Part shown: piece by piece, positions 8,533 to 23,781 of the stretch
Numbering within the stretch: the stretch's first letter is position 1
Layout of the letters: every line of letters starts with the position of its first letter
Source: Alphaproteobacteria bacterium
GTDB lineage: Bacteria; Pseudomonadota; Alphaproteobacteria; Micavibrionales; UBA2020
DNA: 64,000 bases
Reading direction: 5' to 3'
Assembly: GCA_016794125.1 (NCBI GenBank)
Contig: JAEUKT010000002.1
Coordinates: 1,031,396 to 1,095,395, forward strand
Translations under genes and position numbers: made by a program
The notes under the pieces: generated by a model
The model's input: only the letters and a program-made list of their open reading frames with translations
Database searches by the model: none
What the model was told of the DNA's origin: nothing

Positions 8533-10592
8533 CCGCTCAAGCGGAAAAAAAGACCGAAGCGAAGCCCGGAAAACTTTTTGATCTGGTGACCGATTTCAAG
8601 CCGGCGGGCGACCAGCCGACGGCGATTGCCGATTTGCTGGCGGGCATCAACGCGAACGAAAAAAACCAGGTACTGCTGGGCGTGACGGGGTCGGGCAAGA
8701 CCTTTACCGCCGCGCATGTCATCGCGCACCTCAACCGCCCCACCATCATCCTTGCGCCGAACAAGACGCTCGCGGCGCAGCTGTTCGGCGAGATGAAGGA
8801 ATTCTTCCCGAACAACGCGGTCGAGTATTTCGTGTCCTATTACGATTACTACCAGCCCGAAGCCTATGTGCCGAAAACCGATACCTTCATTGAAAAAGAC
8901 AGTTCCATCAACGAACAGATCGACCGCCTGCGCCACTCCGCCACCCGCGCGCTGATGGAGCGCCGCGACTGCATCGTGGTCGCATCCGTTTCCTGCATTT
9001 ACGGCATCGGCGACGTTGAAACCTATCGCGGGATGATTTTCGACATCAATGTGGGCGAAAACATTGACCGCAACGCGCTGGTCAAGAAACTGATCGAGCT
9101 GCATTACGAGCGTAACGACATCGATTTCTCGCGCGGCACGTTCCGCGTCCGCGGCGATGTGCTGGAACTGTTCCCCGCCCACTTGTCGGATGCCGCATGG
9201 CGCATTTCGATGTTCGGCGACGAGATCGAAAGCATTACCGAAGTCGATGCGCTGACCGGCGAAAAAATGGACAGTTTCGAAACCGTGCGCGTCTATGCCA
9301 ACAGCCACTATGTAACGCCGAAACCGACGATGCAGCAGGCGATCAAGCAGATCAAGGCGGACCTGCATACGCGCCTTGCCGAATTCCGCGCGGCGGGCAA
9401 GCTTCTGGAAGAACAGCGCCTTGCGCAGCGCACATCGTTCGATATCGAAATGCTGGAGGCGACGGGCATGTGCGCCGGCATCGAAAACTATTCGCGTTAC
9501 CTGACCGGCCGCGCGCCCGGCGCGCCGCCGCCCACATTGTTTGAATACCTGCCCGAAGACGCGCTGCTGATCGTTGATGAAAGCCACGTGATGGTCCCCC
9601 AGCTGCACGGCATGTACAAGGGCGACCGCGCACGTAAGGTGACGCTGTCCGACTATGGTTTCCGCCTGCCGGCCTGCCTTGATAACCGCCCGCTGATGTT
9701 CGATGAATGGGACAAAATGCGCCCGCAGACGGTGTTCGTCTCGGCGACGCCCGGAGATTGGGAATTGCAGCAGACCGGCGGCGTGTTTGCCGAACAGGTC
9801 GTAAGGCCGACGGGTTTGACCGACCCTCCCGTTATCATCCGCCCCACCGAAAAACAGGTCGATGACCTGCTGGCCGAATGCCGCGATGTGGTGGCCAAGG
9901 GCTACCGCGTGCTGGTGACAACGCTGACCAAGCGCATGGCGGAAGACCTGACGACTTATATGACCGAAACGGGGCTGAAGGTACGCTACCTGCATTCCGA
10001 CGTCGATACGCTGGAGCGGATCGAAATTATCCGCGACCTGCGTTTGGGCGTATTCGATGTGCTGATCGGCATCAACCTGCTGCGCGAAGGCCTCGATATC
10101 CCGGAATGTGCGCTGGTCGCCATTCTGGATGCCGATAAGGAAGGTTACTTGCGGTCGCGCACCTCGCTTATCCAGACGATTGGCCGCGCGGCGCGTAACG
10201 TCGATGCGCGCGCGATTTTGTATGCCGATAAAATCACCGGCAGCATGAAACAGGCGCTGGAGGAAACCGGCCGCCGCCGCGAAAAACAGCTGAAATACAA
10301 CGCCGAAAACGGCATCACGCCCGCAACCGTGCGCAGCAAGATTTCCGATATCCTCGCCAGTGTCTTTGAAAAGGGCGACCATGTGGATGTGAAGGCGGGG
10401 GCTGCGACCGACGGACATATGGTCGGCAAGGACCTGAAATCCTATATGGCCGGCCTTGAAAAACGCATGAAGCAGGCCGCCGCCAATCTGGAATTCGAGG
10501 AAGCCGCGCGCCTGCGTGACGAATTGCGCAGGCTGGAGGCGGCGGAGCTGACCTATCTGGGCGCGGCGGCGGCAGACGCGGCGGTCCAGTAA
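8529..10592 (+). CDS. uvrB: UvrABC system protein B
   Basis: The damage-verification helicase subunit of nucleotide excision repair, 687 residues, normal for the family. Walker A is [16 protein letters not shown] near residue 50, and the beta-hairpin/[12 protein letters not shown] region follows at about 100-115. The DEAD-like box is DESHVMV near 352. Helicase motifs V and VI ([22 protein letters not shown]) are intact, and a C-terminal UVR motif ([17 protein letters not shown]) is present for UvrC contact. The ATG overlaps the upstream Rap1a-like gene by 4 bp. uvrB converges on the next minus-strand gene with no gap and no obvious hairpin between. Confidence 0.97.
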
Positions 10593-10910
10593 TCAGCGGA
10601 TCAATTTCATGGATCTTGCGGTGGCATGCAGTACGCCCGCCGCTTCATCAAGGTCGCGCATCGAATAAATGCTGCCCTTGTTGATTTCCGACGCGGTTTC
10701 CACCAGCTTCAGTTTCAAATAGTTTTCTTCGTCGTCATTGAATTGTGGCACAACCGCCAAGCCTGTCATTTCCGTGAACAGGTCTTCCGCATGGCCCAAC
10801 GGGTTGCCGTCGCGCGGCGGCATGCGTGCGGACAGGTTGAAGCAGGTGGCAAGCCGTTTTGCCTCCAGCCCTACTTTTGCCTCGTCGAAAAACCCGATCT
10901 CCAGCGACAT
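10593..10910 (-). CDS. Hypothetical protein (105 aa)
   Basis: A small soluble protein with no recognised domain. Its ATG overlaps the stop of the upstream gene (TAATG), so the two are translationally coupled and probably act together. The sequence is mixed helical and acidic in the middle (FNDDEENYLKLKLVETA), with no signal peptide, membrane helix or metal-binding motif. The stop abuts that of uvrB. Confidence 0.6.
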   Translation of the reverse strand: MSLEIGFFDEAKVGLEAKRLATCFNLSARMPPRDGNPLGHAEDLFTEMTGLAVVPQFNDDEENYLKLKLVETASEINKGSIYSMRDLDEAAGVLHATARSMKLIR

Positions 10911-11539
10911 TATGCCGTGGGGGCTTTGGGCGTACGGGGCTTTTTCGGTTTTGCGGGCTTCTTTTCTTCCGCCGCAGGCGCAGCGGGAGCTGCCGGGGGT
11001 TCCTGCACGTCTTTCGCGCGCTTCAGGAATTCCTGTACGCGCACCAGCTCGTCCTGGGAACGGCCGGCGAGCGAGGTGAAGAATTTGCCGACGCCGCGAA
11101 GCGACAGGTCGGGCGACTGGATTTCCGTCATCGGCATGTTCAGCACGTCCTGGATGTCGGGATCGGCGAACAGCGCGCGGGTCCAGCCCAGCGTGCCTTT
11201 GATGTCTTTCGAGAACTTGCCTTCGTTGCGCTCTTCGGATTTCGCGATGATTTCTTCCAGCACGTTGATCATCGGCTTGCCCTTGGTGTCGATTTCCAGC
11301 TTGGATGCGACGGCGAGTGTCAGCACTTTCACTTCAAGGATGATCGGCAGGACATCATATGCCGTCATGATTGCGCCCTTGCCGGGATCCGACAAGACTT
11401 CTTTCTGGCGGCGCAGCGCATCGCCGAGATCCTTCGTCAGCAGGTCGGGGTTGTTGGAATGCAGTAGTTTCGGGCCATGATCGCGCGCCATTTTTGCGAA
11501 GATGAAGGCGAGCTTTAAATTCGGGGGGATCAAGGCCAT
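10910..11539 (-). CDS. Hypothetical protein with Pro/Ala/Lys-rich tail (209 aa)
   Basis: An unrecognised protein, first gene of a two-gene operon. AAAGGGAA precedes the ATG. Residues 1-170 look helical and globular (MALIPPNLKLAFIFAKMARD and onward). Residues about 175-209 form a low-complexity tail of Pro, Ala, Lys and Glu (EEKKPAKPKKPRTPKAP), similar in style to the tail of the protein at 23215. Such basic tails bind DNA or polyanions in PhaF-type phasins and histone H1-like proteins; that parallel is inference only. Confidence 0.65.
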   Translation of the reverse strand: MALIPPNLKLAFIFAKMARDHGPKLLHSNNPDLLTKDLGDALRRQKEVLSDPGKGAIMTAYDVLPIILEVKVLTLAVASKLEIDTKGKPMINVLEEIIAKSEERNEGKFSKDIKGTLGWTRALFADPDIQDVLNMPMTEIQSPDLSLRGVGKFFTSLAGRSQDELVRVQEFLKRAKDVQEPPAAPAAPAAEEKKPAKPKKPRTPKAPTA

Positions 11540-11821
11540 CTGTGGTTCCCTTTCAAAGATTCTAAATAGCGTGTGTAATGCATTCTTTTGTTAACATAAG
11601 CCCCCTATAGGGTCAACGAAAGTTGCGCCCAAAATTAACGATTTTACTTACCATAATACAAGGATGGCGATTTTTTCTGAAACTAAAAATCCCAGATACA
11701 TGAGTCGGTTAAATTTAATAACGAATTGGAAAGCAAAAACGCATCAAATGCAATCCTGTACTAATTGTTAATTCTGCCATACAGTAATGTTGTGGGTGTT
11801 TAGTTACGGGGAGATGGTTTA
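11540..11821. other. Longest intergenic region (282 bp), divergent promoters
   Basis: An AT-rich spacer between two divergently transcribed genes, so it should hold at least two promoters. A 10-bp palindrome CCCTATAGGG lies at 11603-11612. The histidine kinase start is preceded by GGGGAG at 11808-11813. No ORF or RNA gene is recognisable here. Confidence 0.5.
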
Positions 11822-13846
11822 ATGCCGGACAGGCGCAAGTCCGCACATCCGAAAACCGATCAGGACATGATGCGCTGCGTCGTGGACGCGAAAGGCGATC
11901 TCGTGTTCATCAGCCCTGCGCTTGGCTGGGCGCTCGGGCAGGGTGCGACCGCGCTTTTGAACAAGCCCCTCCATTCTCTGATTCGTATCGTGGCTGCGCT
12001 CGACAGCACGCATCAAAGCCTTGATCTTGCCGACCTGCAATCCGGATTTTATGAAGTGGCGCTGTTGCGCAGCGAACGCGATCCCGTCGTCGTGCAGGCG
12101 CGCATCGACCGCGTCGATGCCGCAGGCGGCCGCCGCTTCATCGTTATCTGGCTCGACCCCGAAGATAAGCTCAAGAAACAGAAGCAGCAGGGCGATTTCA
12201 ACCTTGTGGCCAAGGAATTCGCGGCCTTTATCGCCGAAAACAACGACAAGCATGAAACTGAAAATACAGCTGCGGAACGCAAGCCGGACTTGACCCATAT
12301 TTCCAAGGCAGACGGCGAACTGCGGCACTTCCTGAACCTGTCGAACGATTTGCTGGGTGTTTATCGCCGCGATATGTCCTTTGTGCGCGTGAACTTCGCG
12401 TTCAACCGCGTGCTTGGATTCAGCGACCCCGAATTGAAACTGTTCCCCTTTATCGACTTGATTCACCCGGAAGAGCGCGACCATATCGTGCAGGTGATGC
12501 AAAAGGTCATCCATGCGCCGCTCGATACCGAAACGCGCGTCGATTTCGAATGCCGCGCGCGCTGCAAGGACGGCTCGTACCGCTGGATCGAATGGATCCA
12601 CAAAGCAGGCGGCGAGCATATCTACATCGTCGGCCGCGACGTGACCGAGATCAAGCAGCACGAGATCGAGCTGCAGCGCCGCGAAGCGCAGCTGTCCGAA
12701 GCGCAGAAGATCGGCCGCATGGGCCATTGGTACTGGGAAGCTGGGCAGTCCGGCATCGAATGGTCGGAACAGATCTACACCACTTTCGGCGTTGATCCGG
12801 ACAAATATAAACCCACAATCGACAATGTCAGCGCGATGCTGCTGAAGCGCGATCTGGGCCGCATCATGCGCGTGTTCCAGCGCGCGCTTATCCGCAAGCG
12901 CGATTACGCGCTGGAATTCAGCGTGCGCCGCCCGACGGGCGGGATCAGATATGTGCGCTGCGAAGGCCGCTGCAAGGTCAATATGAAGACCGGCGAGGTC
13001 GAGGCGCTATACGGCATCATGCAGGATATCACGGAGCGCACGCAGCACGAAAAACAACTGCGCGAGGCGAAGGAAGCGGCAGAAAGCGCGTACGCGTCCA
13101 AAACCCGCTTCCTTGCCAACATGTCCCACGAATTGCGCACGCCGCTGAACGCCATCATCGGCTTCTCCGAAATGATCCAGCGCCAGCTGCTGGGGCCGAT
13201 GGGCAATGCGCGGTACCTCGATTACATCAGCGGCATCCGCCAGTCGGGCGAACACCTTCTCGACCTTATCAACGATATTCTCGATATGTCGAAGATCGAG
13301 GTTGGCAAGTATGAACTGTATGTCGAAGAACTGAACGTCGGCAAAATCATCCGCCTTGCCATCCACATGGTCGAAGGGCGCGCGCACGAACAGCAGGTGA
13401 AACTGGTCGCCGACGACATTCCTGACGACATCCACATCATGGCCGACCGTCGGGCGGTCATGCAGATCCTCCTGAACCTGATGTCCAATGCCATCAAGTT
13501 CACCAAGGCGGGCGGCACGGTCGATGTGCGCTGCTTCCCTGAGCTGGGCGGTGTCGCCATGGTCGTGTCCGATACCGGCGTCGGCATCCCGCGCGAAAAA
13601 CTGGATGTTGTGACGCTGCCGTTCGAACAGGTGTCTTCCGAATTCACGCGCAATCATGAAGGTTCGGGCCTCGGATTAGCGATTACCAAAGACCTGGTGG
13701 AACTGCATGGCGGCACCATCGACATCGACAGCGAAGTGGGCGTCGGCACCATCGTGACGGTCGTGCTGCCCGAAAAAGTGCCAGAAGGCAAAAAAGTGCA
13801 GGCCGCCGAAAACGCCGCCCGCCGCGAACTCGAAACCGCGGGATAA
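11822..13846 (+). CDS. Multi-PAS sensor histidine kinase
   Basis: A 674-residue cytoplasmic histidine kinase with no transmembrane segment. The N-terminus has a PAS-like region (about 15-110), then two PAS/PAC modules (about 160-280 and 290-400, the latter ending YGIMQDITERTQ). HisKA follows with the phospho-acceptor His436 in MSHELRTPLNAIIGFSEMI, and the HATPase_c domain shows N box NLMSNAIKFTKAGG, G1 VSDTGVGIP and G2 EGSGLGLAITKDL. This architecture matches DivJ/PleC-like alphaproteobacterial kinases. No response regulator is adjacent, so it is an orphan kinase. GGGGAG lies 8 nt before the ATG. Confidence 0.92.
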   Translation: MPDRRKSAHPKTDQDMMRCVVDAKGDLVFISPALGWALGQGATALLNKPLHSLIRIVAALDSTHQSLDLADLQSGFYEVALLRSERDPVVVQARIDRVDAAGGRRFIVIWLDPEDKLKKQKQQGDFNLVAKEFAAFIAENNDKHETENTAAERKPDLTHISKADGELRHFLNLSNDLLGVYRRDMSFVRVNFAFNRVLGFSDPELKLFPFIDLIHPEERDHIVQVMQKVIHAPLDTETRVDFECRARCKDGSYRWIEWIHKAGGEHIYIVGRDVTEIKQHEIELQRREAQLSEAQKIGRMGHWYWEAGQSGIEWSEQIYTTFGVDPDKYKPTIDNVSAMLLKRDLGRIMRVFQRALIRKRDYALEFSVRRPTGGIRYVRCEGRCKVNMKTGEVEALYGIMQDITERTQHEKQLREAKEAAESAYASKTRFLANMSHELRTPLNAIIGFSEMIQRQLLGPMGNARYLDYISGIRQSGEHLLDLINDILDMSKIEVGKYELYVEELNVGKIIRLAIHMVEGRAHEQQVKLVADDIPDDIHIMADRRAVMQILLNLMSNAIKFTKAGGTVDVRCFPELGGVAMVVSDTGVGIPREKLDVVTLPFEQVSSEFTRNHEGSGLGLAITKDLVELHGGTIDIDSEVGVGTIVTVVLPEKVPEGKKVQAAENAARRELETAG

Positions 13847-21719: not shown

Positions 21720-22865
21720 TTATTTGCCGCCGGCGATATTCACGGCGAGTGATTTGTCTTCCAGAAACTGCTGGTTTTCCGCGCGGATCTTCGCGGCGGC
21801 CTCGTCATACAGGAACGGCAGGAACGCATAGCGCTTGCCTTTCGTGACGGGCGTGACCGCGTGCAGCAGGGCGCAGGAAAACACGACCGCGCCGCCGGGC
21901 GGCGGCTTGAAGGTGCGCGGGCCGTATTCGGGGAAGTTCAATTCCCCGCCTTCGAAATCATTATTCAGGTTGATGGTGACGGCAAAACGGCGATGCGCCG
22001 TGCCCTTGGTCGTATGGTCGCGGTGCGGGCGGAAGAAACCGCCATTCGCGCCGTCATAGCAGGCGACGATAAACCGCTCGATACGCGACGCATGAAAGAA
22101 ATGGACTTTCTCGATCTCCGGTACCAGCCGTTTTTTCAGGCGTGCGCGGAGTTCCACCAGAAGGTTTTCATCGTCCAGCACCACATCGCTGCGGCGTTTC
22201 AAGCCGTAATCCACGATGCCGACGGTCTTGCCGCCCACGTCGCGCATAAAGCCGCTTTCTTGTCCGCCCTGTGTTTCATAGATATCGATCAGGCGCTGGC
22301 ACAGTTCAGGCTCGAACACGTTCGGCAGGTAAATGACAGGCGCCTGCAGCGTGATGCCGGAAAATTTTTCGACGGCTGGCAGCGATTTCAGGAATGCCGA
22401 CAGTTCTGCGCCGTGGTTGGGGTTGCCATCCATGTTGATCGTTTTCATGATGCGCATGGTGGGATCGAGAACATACCACACGCGGCGCGCGGCAATTTTT
22501 CCGTCCGTGCCCTTCTTGAAGTTACGCGCCACAGAACCGTACAGCTTGCTGACCGCAAGGTCGGTATCCCAGAACCAGCGGATGCCGGGCAGTTCCGTCT
22601 TCAGGCGCCCCTGCTTTTCGTCGTTCGGGTCGATGCTGATGCCAAAAAAAGCGATATGATTGTCATCGAACAGGGCGCGGTTTTCACGCGCGACCGCCAA
22701 TGCTTCCTGCCCTGCGGGGCTGTTCGCGCTGGCGAAAAATCCCAGCACGATATAGCGGCCGGCGGCGGTGTCGAAACGGTATTCGGGGTTGCTGCAGCCG
22801 CGCGCTGTGAACCACGGCGCAGGGTCGCCGGTGCCGAGGCGGATATATTCCAGCCCGCCCGCCAT
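21720..22865 (-). CDS. Peroxiredoxin-like domain fused to 2OG-Fe(II) oxygenase
   Basis: A 381-residue two-domain protein. Residues about 8-165 have an AhpC/TSA (peroxiredoxin) fold pattern: GDPAPWFTARG, then YIVLGFFASANSPAGQEAL, then FFGISIDPNDEKQG. The position normally held by the peroxidatic Cys (TPxC) is Ala in SANSPAGQEA, so peroxidase activity is unlikely. Residues about 170-365 form a prolyl-4-hydroxylase-type dioxygenase. It has the iron ligands in FFRPHRDHTTKG (HxD), NNDFEGGELNFPEYG, and the distal His and Arg in LLHAVTPVTKGKRYAF. The ATG overlaps the upstream stop by 1 bp (TAATG). The substrate is unknown. Confidence 0.85.
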   Translation of the reverse strand: MAGGLEYIRLGTGDPAPWFTARGCSNPEYRFDTAAGRYIVLGFFASANSPAGQEALAVARENRALFDDNHIAFFGISIDPNDEKQGRLKTELPGIRWFWDTDLAVSKLYGSVARNFKKGTDGKIAARRVWYVLDPTMRIMKTINMDGNPNHGAELSAFLKSLPAVEKFSGITLQAPVIYLPNVFEPELCQRLIDIYETQGGQESGFMRDVGGKTVGIVDYGLKRRSDVVLDDENLLVELRARLKKRLVPEIEKVHFFHASRIERFIVACYDGANGGFFRPHRDHTTKGTAHRRFAVTINLNNDFEGGELNFPEYGPRTFKPPPGGAVVFSCALLHAVTPVTKGKRYAFLPFLYDEAAAKIRAENQQFLEDKSLAVNIAGGK

Positions 22866-23068
22866 TACTGTGCAGGCCCCTTGGGCGCGTCGCCGTCTTT
22901 TTTGCGCTTGTCGCGACCCATCGTCGCCAGCTTGTCTTCCAGCGCATTCACGATCCTGACCTTGCCTTCTTCCAGCTTGTCGTCCAGCGCGGTGACTTTT
23001 TCGACGGCGGTGTTAAATGCCTCGCCCGCGAGCTTTTTGCCGTCTTTCAGCTTCTGTTTCCAGTCCAT
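22865..23068 (-). CDS. Small charged helical protein (67 aa)
   Basis: A very small soluble protein, start ATG at 23068 preceded by GGAGCG. A longer version from 23134 would add 22 residues that look like upstream non-coding sequence. The sequence is almost entirely charged helix (MDWKQKLKDGKKLAGEAF, DDKLEEGKVRIVNALEDKLA) with a lysine-rich C-terminus. It is coupled to the oxygenase gene by a 1-bp overlap. It resembles in composition the helical protein at 23215, but shares no clear alignment with it. Confidence 0.6.
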   Translation of the reverse strand: MDWKQKLKDGKKLAGEAFNTAVEKVTALDDKLEEGKVRIVNALEDKLATMGRDKRKKDGDAPKGPAQ

Positions 23069-23214: not shown

Positions 23215-23652
23215 TTATTTAGGAGCCTTGGGGGCTGCGGGTTTTTTCTTTGCAGCGGCTTTCGGCGCGGCGGGTTTTTTCGCGGCTTTCGGGGCTTTCG
23301 GCGCAGCTGCTTTTTCTTCTTTTGCAGCGGGTGCGGGTGCAGCTTCTTCTTTCGGGGCCTGGAACACGGGCTTGTCCAGCGTCGTGGTCGGCTGCACTTT
23401 TTGCTGTTGCGCGCGTGGGTTGAATTGTTGTTCGAGGTCGGTCAGCAGCAGGTCAACAGTCGTGACGACGCCGGCGACGACATCTTCGAGCTGTTCGCGT
23501 TTCTTGTTGATGGCGGTTGCGGCTTTGTTTGCTTTTTCATCCAGCTTGCGGCCGACTTGCTCGCGCTTGGTTTCCAGTGCGTCGAGACCGGTGGTCAGCG
23601 CTTCTTCTGCGACGGCGGCGGCGATCTTTGCGAAATCTCTAAAAAGGCTCAT
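23215..23652 (-). CDS. Helical protein with Ala/Lys/Pro histone H1-like tail
   Basis: A 145-residue protein. ATG at 23652 is chosen because GAGG lies 9 nt upstream; the ATG at 23661 would directly abut the same GAGG. Residues 1-75 are predicted amphipathic coiled helix (LFRDFAKIAAAVAEEALTTG, NKKREQLEDVVAGVVTTVDL). Residues about 95-145 are almost only Ala, Lys and Pro (KAPKAAKKPAAPKAAAKKKP). This two-part design matches PhaF-type phasins and bacterial H1-like nucleoid proteins, but the N-terminus is not clearly a phasin domain. It has its own promoter and strong terminator, suggesting abundant monocistronic expression. Confidence 0.72.
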   Translation of the reverse strand: MSLFRDFAKIAAAVAEEALTTGLDALETKREQVGRKLDEKANKAATAINKKREQLEDVVAGVVTTVDLLLTDLEQQFNPRAQQQKVQPTTTLDKPVFQAPKEEAAPAPAAKEEKAAAPKAPKAAKKPAAPKAAAKKKPAAPKAPK

Positions 23653-23781
23653 CTTGGTCATCCTCTATATGTGCTGTTTTTGAAAAGGTATCCGGCGTTT
23701 GTCGCCGGTCGTCTTCTTGTTGCTTCGTGTCGTTTCCGTGGTGGTAAAACTTGATCGCTGCGTTGTCATAAGCGTGGAAGT

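Follow-up and report, generated by a model that had tools for sequence, protein, structure and literature searches.

An open reading frame in the window (the whole stretch of 64,000 nucleotides analysed here) encodes a protein that combines a peroxiredoxin (Prx) fold lacking its peroxidatic cysteine with a 2OG-Fe(II) oxygenase domain. The protein is probably an Fe(II)/2OG oxygenase of the P4H/PHD fold, most likely with a protein or peptide substrate, whose N-terminal domain is a pseudo-peroxiredoxin scaffold. Proteins of this kind form a widespread bacterial family that has apparently not been studied, and in most of them just one of the two joined enzymes retains its active site. The gene lies on the minus strand, with its ATG at 22865 and its stop codon at 21720. 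The features referred to below are as follows.

21720..22865, minus strand: whole ORF of 381 aa, pseudo-peroxiredoxin domain plus 2OG-Fe(II) oxygenase domain
22865..23068, minus strand: upstream ORF of 67 aa (MDWKQKLKDGKK...GPAQ), whose stop TAA shares one base with the fusion ATG (TAATG)
22368..22847, minus strand: N-terminal Prx-fold domain, about residues 7–166 (Pfam, structure model, profile against the PDB)
22710..22712, minus strand: codon of Gly52, at the column of the peroxidatic Cys (alignments with the genome's Prx and PDB 2ywn)
21798..22358, minus strand: C-terminal double-stranded β-helix 2OG-Fe(II) oxygenase domain, prolyl-hydroxylase-like, about residues 170–356 (Pfam and model)
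22017..22025, minus strand: HRD, the HxD iron-binding motif, H281/D283 (H and D in 118/118 members)
21831..21863, minus strand: distal iron-binding His335 to 2OG-binding Arg345 (in 117/118 and 118/118 members)

The N-terminal domain had been described in an earlier note on this DNA as AhpC/TSA-like, and on this the Pfam match and structure prediction agree. Pfam places an AhpC-TSA domain at residues 12–139 (E 1.2e-8, 35.4 bits, cut-off 26). The first structure model, based on an alignment of five sequences, has pLDDT mostly of 70–94 between residues 40 and 160, and the N-domain model matches BCP (9a4d, Z 17.3), M. tuberculosis AhpE (Z 16.6) and Bcp1 (3drn, Z 16.2). A profile built from 14 N domains finds almost exclusively Prx chains in the PDB.

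For the active site, the reference sequences in the alignment were three Prx from the same genome (AhpC-, PrxQ- and BCP-like), whose peroxidatic cysteines all align at Gly52. Across the PxxxTxxC motif, the fusion protein has Ala45 at the Pro, Ser49 at the Thr and Gly52 at the Cys. The earlier statement that Ala replaces the catalytic Cys is therefore right as to the missing cysteine, but alignment with Prx of the genome and the PDB gives the residue as Gly52, Ala51 being one residue off. The active-site Arg column of Prx is R128 here, and is Arg in 18 of the 118 family members. The protein thus has the fold and the active-site Arg of a catalytic peroxiredoxin, and lacks PxxxTxxC.

Peroxidase activity of the N domain by way of some other cysteine is highly improbable. 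The fold is intact, and two family members (L060 and L173) do have Cys at the right column, but PxxxTxxC is gone, and the only cysteine in the N domain of the window protein, Cys24, lies in a variable stretch and is Cys in 7/118 members. Cys24, which the earlier note had named as an example of a cysteine that would refute its reading if it aligned at the peroxidatic position, was rejected because the alignment puts it at a different column.

The C-terminal domain is matched by Pfam 2OG-FeII_Oxy_3 at residues 266–350 (E 6e-14, 53.2 bits, cut-off 27). In the five-sequence model this domain was unfolded (pLDDT 49.6), and it was remodelled with 2OG domains from other loci added, giving a second model with pLDDT 78.5 and pTM 0.68. 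The closest structures are an algal P4H (3gze, Z 20.3) and the P. putida PHD/EF-Tu complex (4iw3, PPHD, Z 19.3), followed by the Trichoplax PHD (18.1), PiuC-like proteins (18) and PHD2 (17.6); LH3 is also among the matches. The nearest 2OG-oxygenase folds are thus P4H, PPHD and a PHD, matches within 1 Z being treated as tied, with PiuC-like chains close behind. The HxD, distal His and Arg noted earlier are located at H281/D283, H335 and R345, and in the model these four residues are predicted to form the expected Fe/2OG site. Structure prediction thus confirms the folds assigned to both domains.

The family was surveyed with a match threshold of E 1e-20 among frames of at least 300 aa. Matches were found in 83/385 sampled genomes of Alphaproteobacteria (58/277 genera), with up to five in one genome, so that the survey of the fusion proposed earlier reveals a recurrent family. 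Among the carriers with a species or genus name are Micavibrio sp., Microvirga flocculans, Rhizobium leguminosarum and Niveispirillum cyanobacteriorum; the gene of R. leguminosarum WSM1325 is at NC_012853 478192-479334. In a phylum-wide sample 13/299 genomes matched, all 13 from the class of the window. In another class of the phylum (that of genome G450), which we take to be the Gammaproteobacteria, the fusion is rare: members that are clear by score and length occur in 3/274 genomes (L284, L285, L286), and more were found when the order to which genome G915 belongs was searched in greater depth. Phage matches are confined to the 2OG domain, none covering 80% of the query; IMG/VR holds one full-length member (L069). 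Two plasmid records carry such a gene, annotated only as "2OG-Fe(II) oxygenase" and with no neighbours in common. No curated family in Pfam or NCBIfam spans the fusion, and the openly licensed literature yielded no paper on it and no biochemical data for any member, nor any characterised homologue, in keeping with the earlier remark that the arrangement was not known to be characterised.

The N domain varies more than the C domain. The columns of H281, D283, H335 and R345 are kept in 118, 118, 117 and 118 of 118 distinct members, while the peroxidatic column contains A (28), G (19), S (13), V (9), L (9) and others, with Cys in only the two members noted above. The same state recurs across the 118 homologues, and loss of the peroxidatic Cys is therefore not a matter of chance. 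Mean pairwise identity is 37% for the N domain and 60% for the C domain. Comparison with the 94%-identical L003 gives dN/dS of 0.10 and 0.02 respectively: both domains are under purifying selection, the N domain being constrained, though freer than the C domain. In a tree of N domains, those sampled from fusions group together in a single clade, separate from the stand-alone Prx (100/99).

These values bear on the alternative that the N domain is a fossil of a bifunctional ancestor, serving as no more than an inert linker or solubility tag and with no present catalytic or binding role. Its faster evolution and the poor conservation of Prx-like sequence in many divergent members would fit such an explanation. 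We nevertheless consider it rather unlikely, in view of the dN/dS of 0.10, the retention of G36, D100 and R138 in 113, 113 and 101 of 118 members, and the lack of any sign of the domain being dropped among the surveyed frames of at least 300 aa. Among 51 members sharing the motifs of the window protein, the old catalytic loop has a new consensus, F-(F/L)-G-S-A (G in 36, S in 35, A in 29), a pattern that points to reuse of the loop more than to unconstrained drift.

According to the earlier note, the dead Prx domain may be a sensor, of redox state or by protein docking, that controls hydroxylation. A redox fold does adjoin an O2-using enzyme, and the window protein is one of those with Arg at the active-site Arg column. 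However, Cys reaches at most 24/118 members at any N-domain column, and 16/118 lack it throughout the N part. A thiol switch would need to differ from lineage to lineage. The near-invariant C189 (115/118) belongs to the 2OG domain, and a number of phage 2OG oxygenases have it too. With no conserved N-domain Cys a thiol-based sensor is unlikely, and redox sensing as a whole has little to recommend it, although there may be sensing of a non-thiol kind.

We prefer the scaffold reading, in which the C domain would bind iron via H281, D283 and H335 and 2OG via R345, and would hydroxylate a side chain. The N domain would no longer reduce peroxides, and most likely would be a non-catalytic scaffold that positions the substrate protein, sets the oligomeric state or keeps the catalytic domain folded. 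Catalytic activity, a protein substrate and the scaffold role are what we infer for the fusion. For the N domain, our best guess would be a module without catalytic function that serves in docking, assembly or stabilisation, and a docking role would be compatible with the kept fold, the purifying selection and the new consensus loop.

P4H-fold enzymes include some with small-molecule or unknown substrates, and the C domain could act on a free amino acid, an iron chelate or a lipid rather than on a protein. The closest NCBIfam group is indeed PKHD/PiuC/YbiX, and up to five matches per genome would suit varied metabolic roles. The best score against this group (PRK05467) is however only 40.8 bits, against a cut-off of 143, which places the domain outside it. 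The best structural matches of the C domain, apart from PiuC, are enzymes that hydroxylate peptides or proteins (3gze with (Ser-Pro)5, 4iw3 with EF-Tu, PHD2 and LH3), and there is no recurrent biosynthetic neighbourhood among 40 neighbourhoods. We therefore regard a small-molecule substrate as the less probable option, at perhaps one chance in five.

The genomic setting was also analysed. The source genome (3.16 Mb, four contigs) has a single full copy of the fusion gene, and several ordinary Prx-family proteins besides. The 67-aa ORF directly upstream is probably translationally coupled to it; this ORF also overlaps the fusion gene in L003, while L005 has a similar but non-overlapping ORF upstream. 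It is lysine-rich, and a Pfam search gave no family above cut-off. Further upstream (23215-23661, minus strand) is a protein of 148 aa whose tail is rich in Lys, Ala and Pro and resembles histone H1; the protein has a counterpart at the same place in L005 and likewise no Pfam family above cut-off. The flanking genes, named by eye from their sequences, are housekeeping genes (accC, accB and aroQ-like; truA, fmt and def-like).

When the ORFs of 40 family neighbourhoods were clustered, no conserved operon emerged, and no recurrent neighbour beyond one sub-branch (L169, L171, L173 and L175), which is found near folC-like and trx genes. No neighbouring gene is conserved across the family, and context therefore gives no pointer to a substrate or partner. 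Within this sub-branch L171, L173 and L175 lie between the folC-like and trx genes and have a BCP-like loop, PTQKDPG(A/C). L173 has the Cys and its two close relatives the Ala, a recent change of state; in the tree L173 is nested in a group with Ala relatives.

Two other loci are worth recording. Beside the R. leguminosarum plasmid copy (L280), on the opposite strand at 9535-12117, is a DoxX / DNA-binding / DUF692 / DUF2282 gene set, which to us resembles copper-related RiPP clusters; no DoxX/DUF692/DUF2282 set was seen near other family members. In L015, positions 1498-1599 (G019:C1:672677-672781) encode 35 residues with 69% identity to the C-terminal end of the fusion, within a 44-aa open frame, probably the remnant of a lost fusion copy in the same order.

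A group of members from one gammaproteobacterial order shows the opposite arrangement. L286, L295, L296 and L297 have Cys at the peroxidatic column, in the motifs PFCVEL, PFCLEL, AKCQEM and EKCQRL respectively, and the residues at H281, D283, H335 and R345 are all replaced. L286 and L295 are 75% identical and from one genus, and L296 and L297 come from two other genera. All four have intact reading frames and an Arg before a TFILD-like strand. In the Pfam scan L286, L296 and L297 each match AhpC-TSA, and none of these three matches a 2OG domain. Between L286 and L295 dN is 0.14 for the N domain and 0.19 for the C domain, with identities of 78% and 72% (dS is saturated), so that the N domain is here the better-kept one, opposite to the lineage of the window. 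The Thr of PxxxTxxC is replaced by His, Glu or Asn in the four, and peroxidase activity is therefore not implied. The genome of L297 (G972) also contains L298, a normal copy with a dead Prx and a live 2OG domain.

The four mirror-image N domains form one clade in the tree (100/99). The tree gives no firm order at its base, and an ancestor with both sites alive is thus at most plausible. A speculative scheme, to which we give perhaps one chance in four, is reciprocal loss from such a two-headed ancestor: most lineages would have lost the peroxidase and one gammaproteobacterial branch the iron/2OG ligands, and each dead head would persist because it regulates the live head or helps to assemble it. 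In G972 the two proteins might then act as a complementary pair.

Few bacterial protein hydroxylases have been described, among them YcfD, acting on L16, and PPHD, acting on EF-Tu (PMC4543633). The present family is of some significance in that roughly one in five of the Alphaproteobacteria sampled has a P4H-fold oxygenase that includes a pseudo-Prx module, at times in more than one copy, and with no described function. It is also a clear example from nature of a pseudoenzyme domain kept on the same chain as an active enzyme, and with the mirror-image branch the purpose of either dead domain can be tested directly.

Several known systems resemble parts of the fusion. For the N domain, BCP/PrxQ and AhpE share the fold (Z 15–17) and the Arg column, but the window protein lacks the peroxidatic Cys, Thr and Pro of their PxxxTxxC motif. 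The Prx-nitroreductase fusion (4eo3), likened here from the listing of structure matches, also joins a Prx domain to an unrelated oxidoreductase, although the partner enzyme is different. For the C domain, the algal P4H 3gze shares the fold, and PPHD and PHD2/EGLN1 share both the fold and the HxD...H...R pattern, but these last two have no Prx domain and are only 13–18% identical. PKHD-type PiuC/YbiX proteins (PRK05467; 3dkq, 9ghl) are the closest curated sequence family, with a similar fold (Z 17–18), but scores fall far below the curated cut-offs and the matches span the C domain only. A parallel to the proposed scaffold is collagen P4H, whose catalytic subunit depends on the PDI subunit for its solubility and competence (PMC9676403), a precedent, in trans, for support of a hydroxylase by a thioredoxin fold. 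There the partner of the α subunit is a separate PDI with CGHC motifs, whose cysteines make the disulfides seen in the structure (PMC9676403), whereas the window protein carries a Prx-type domain in cis, without the catalytic Cys.
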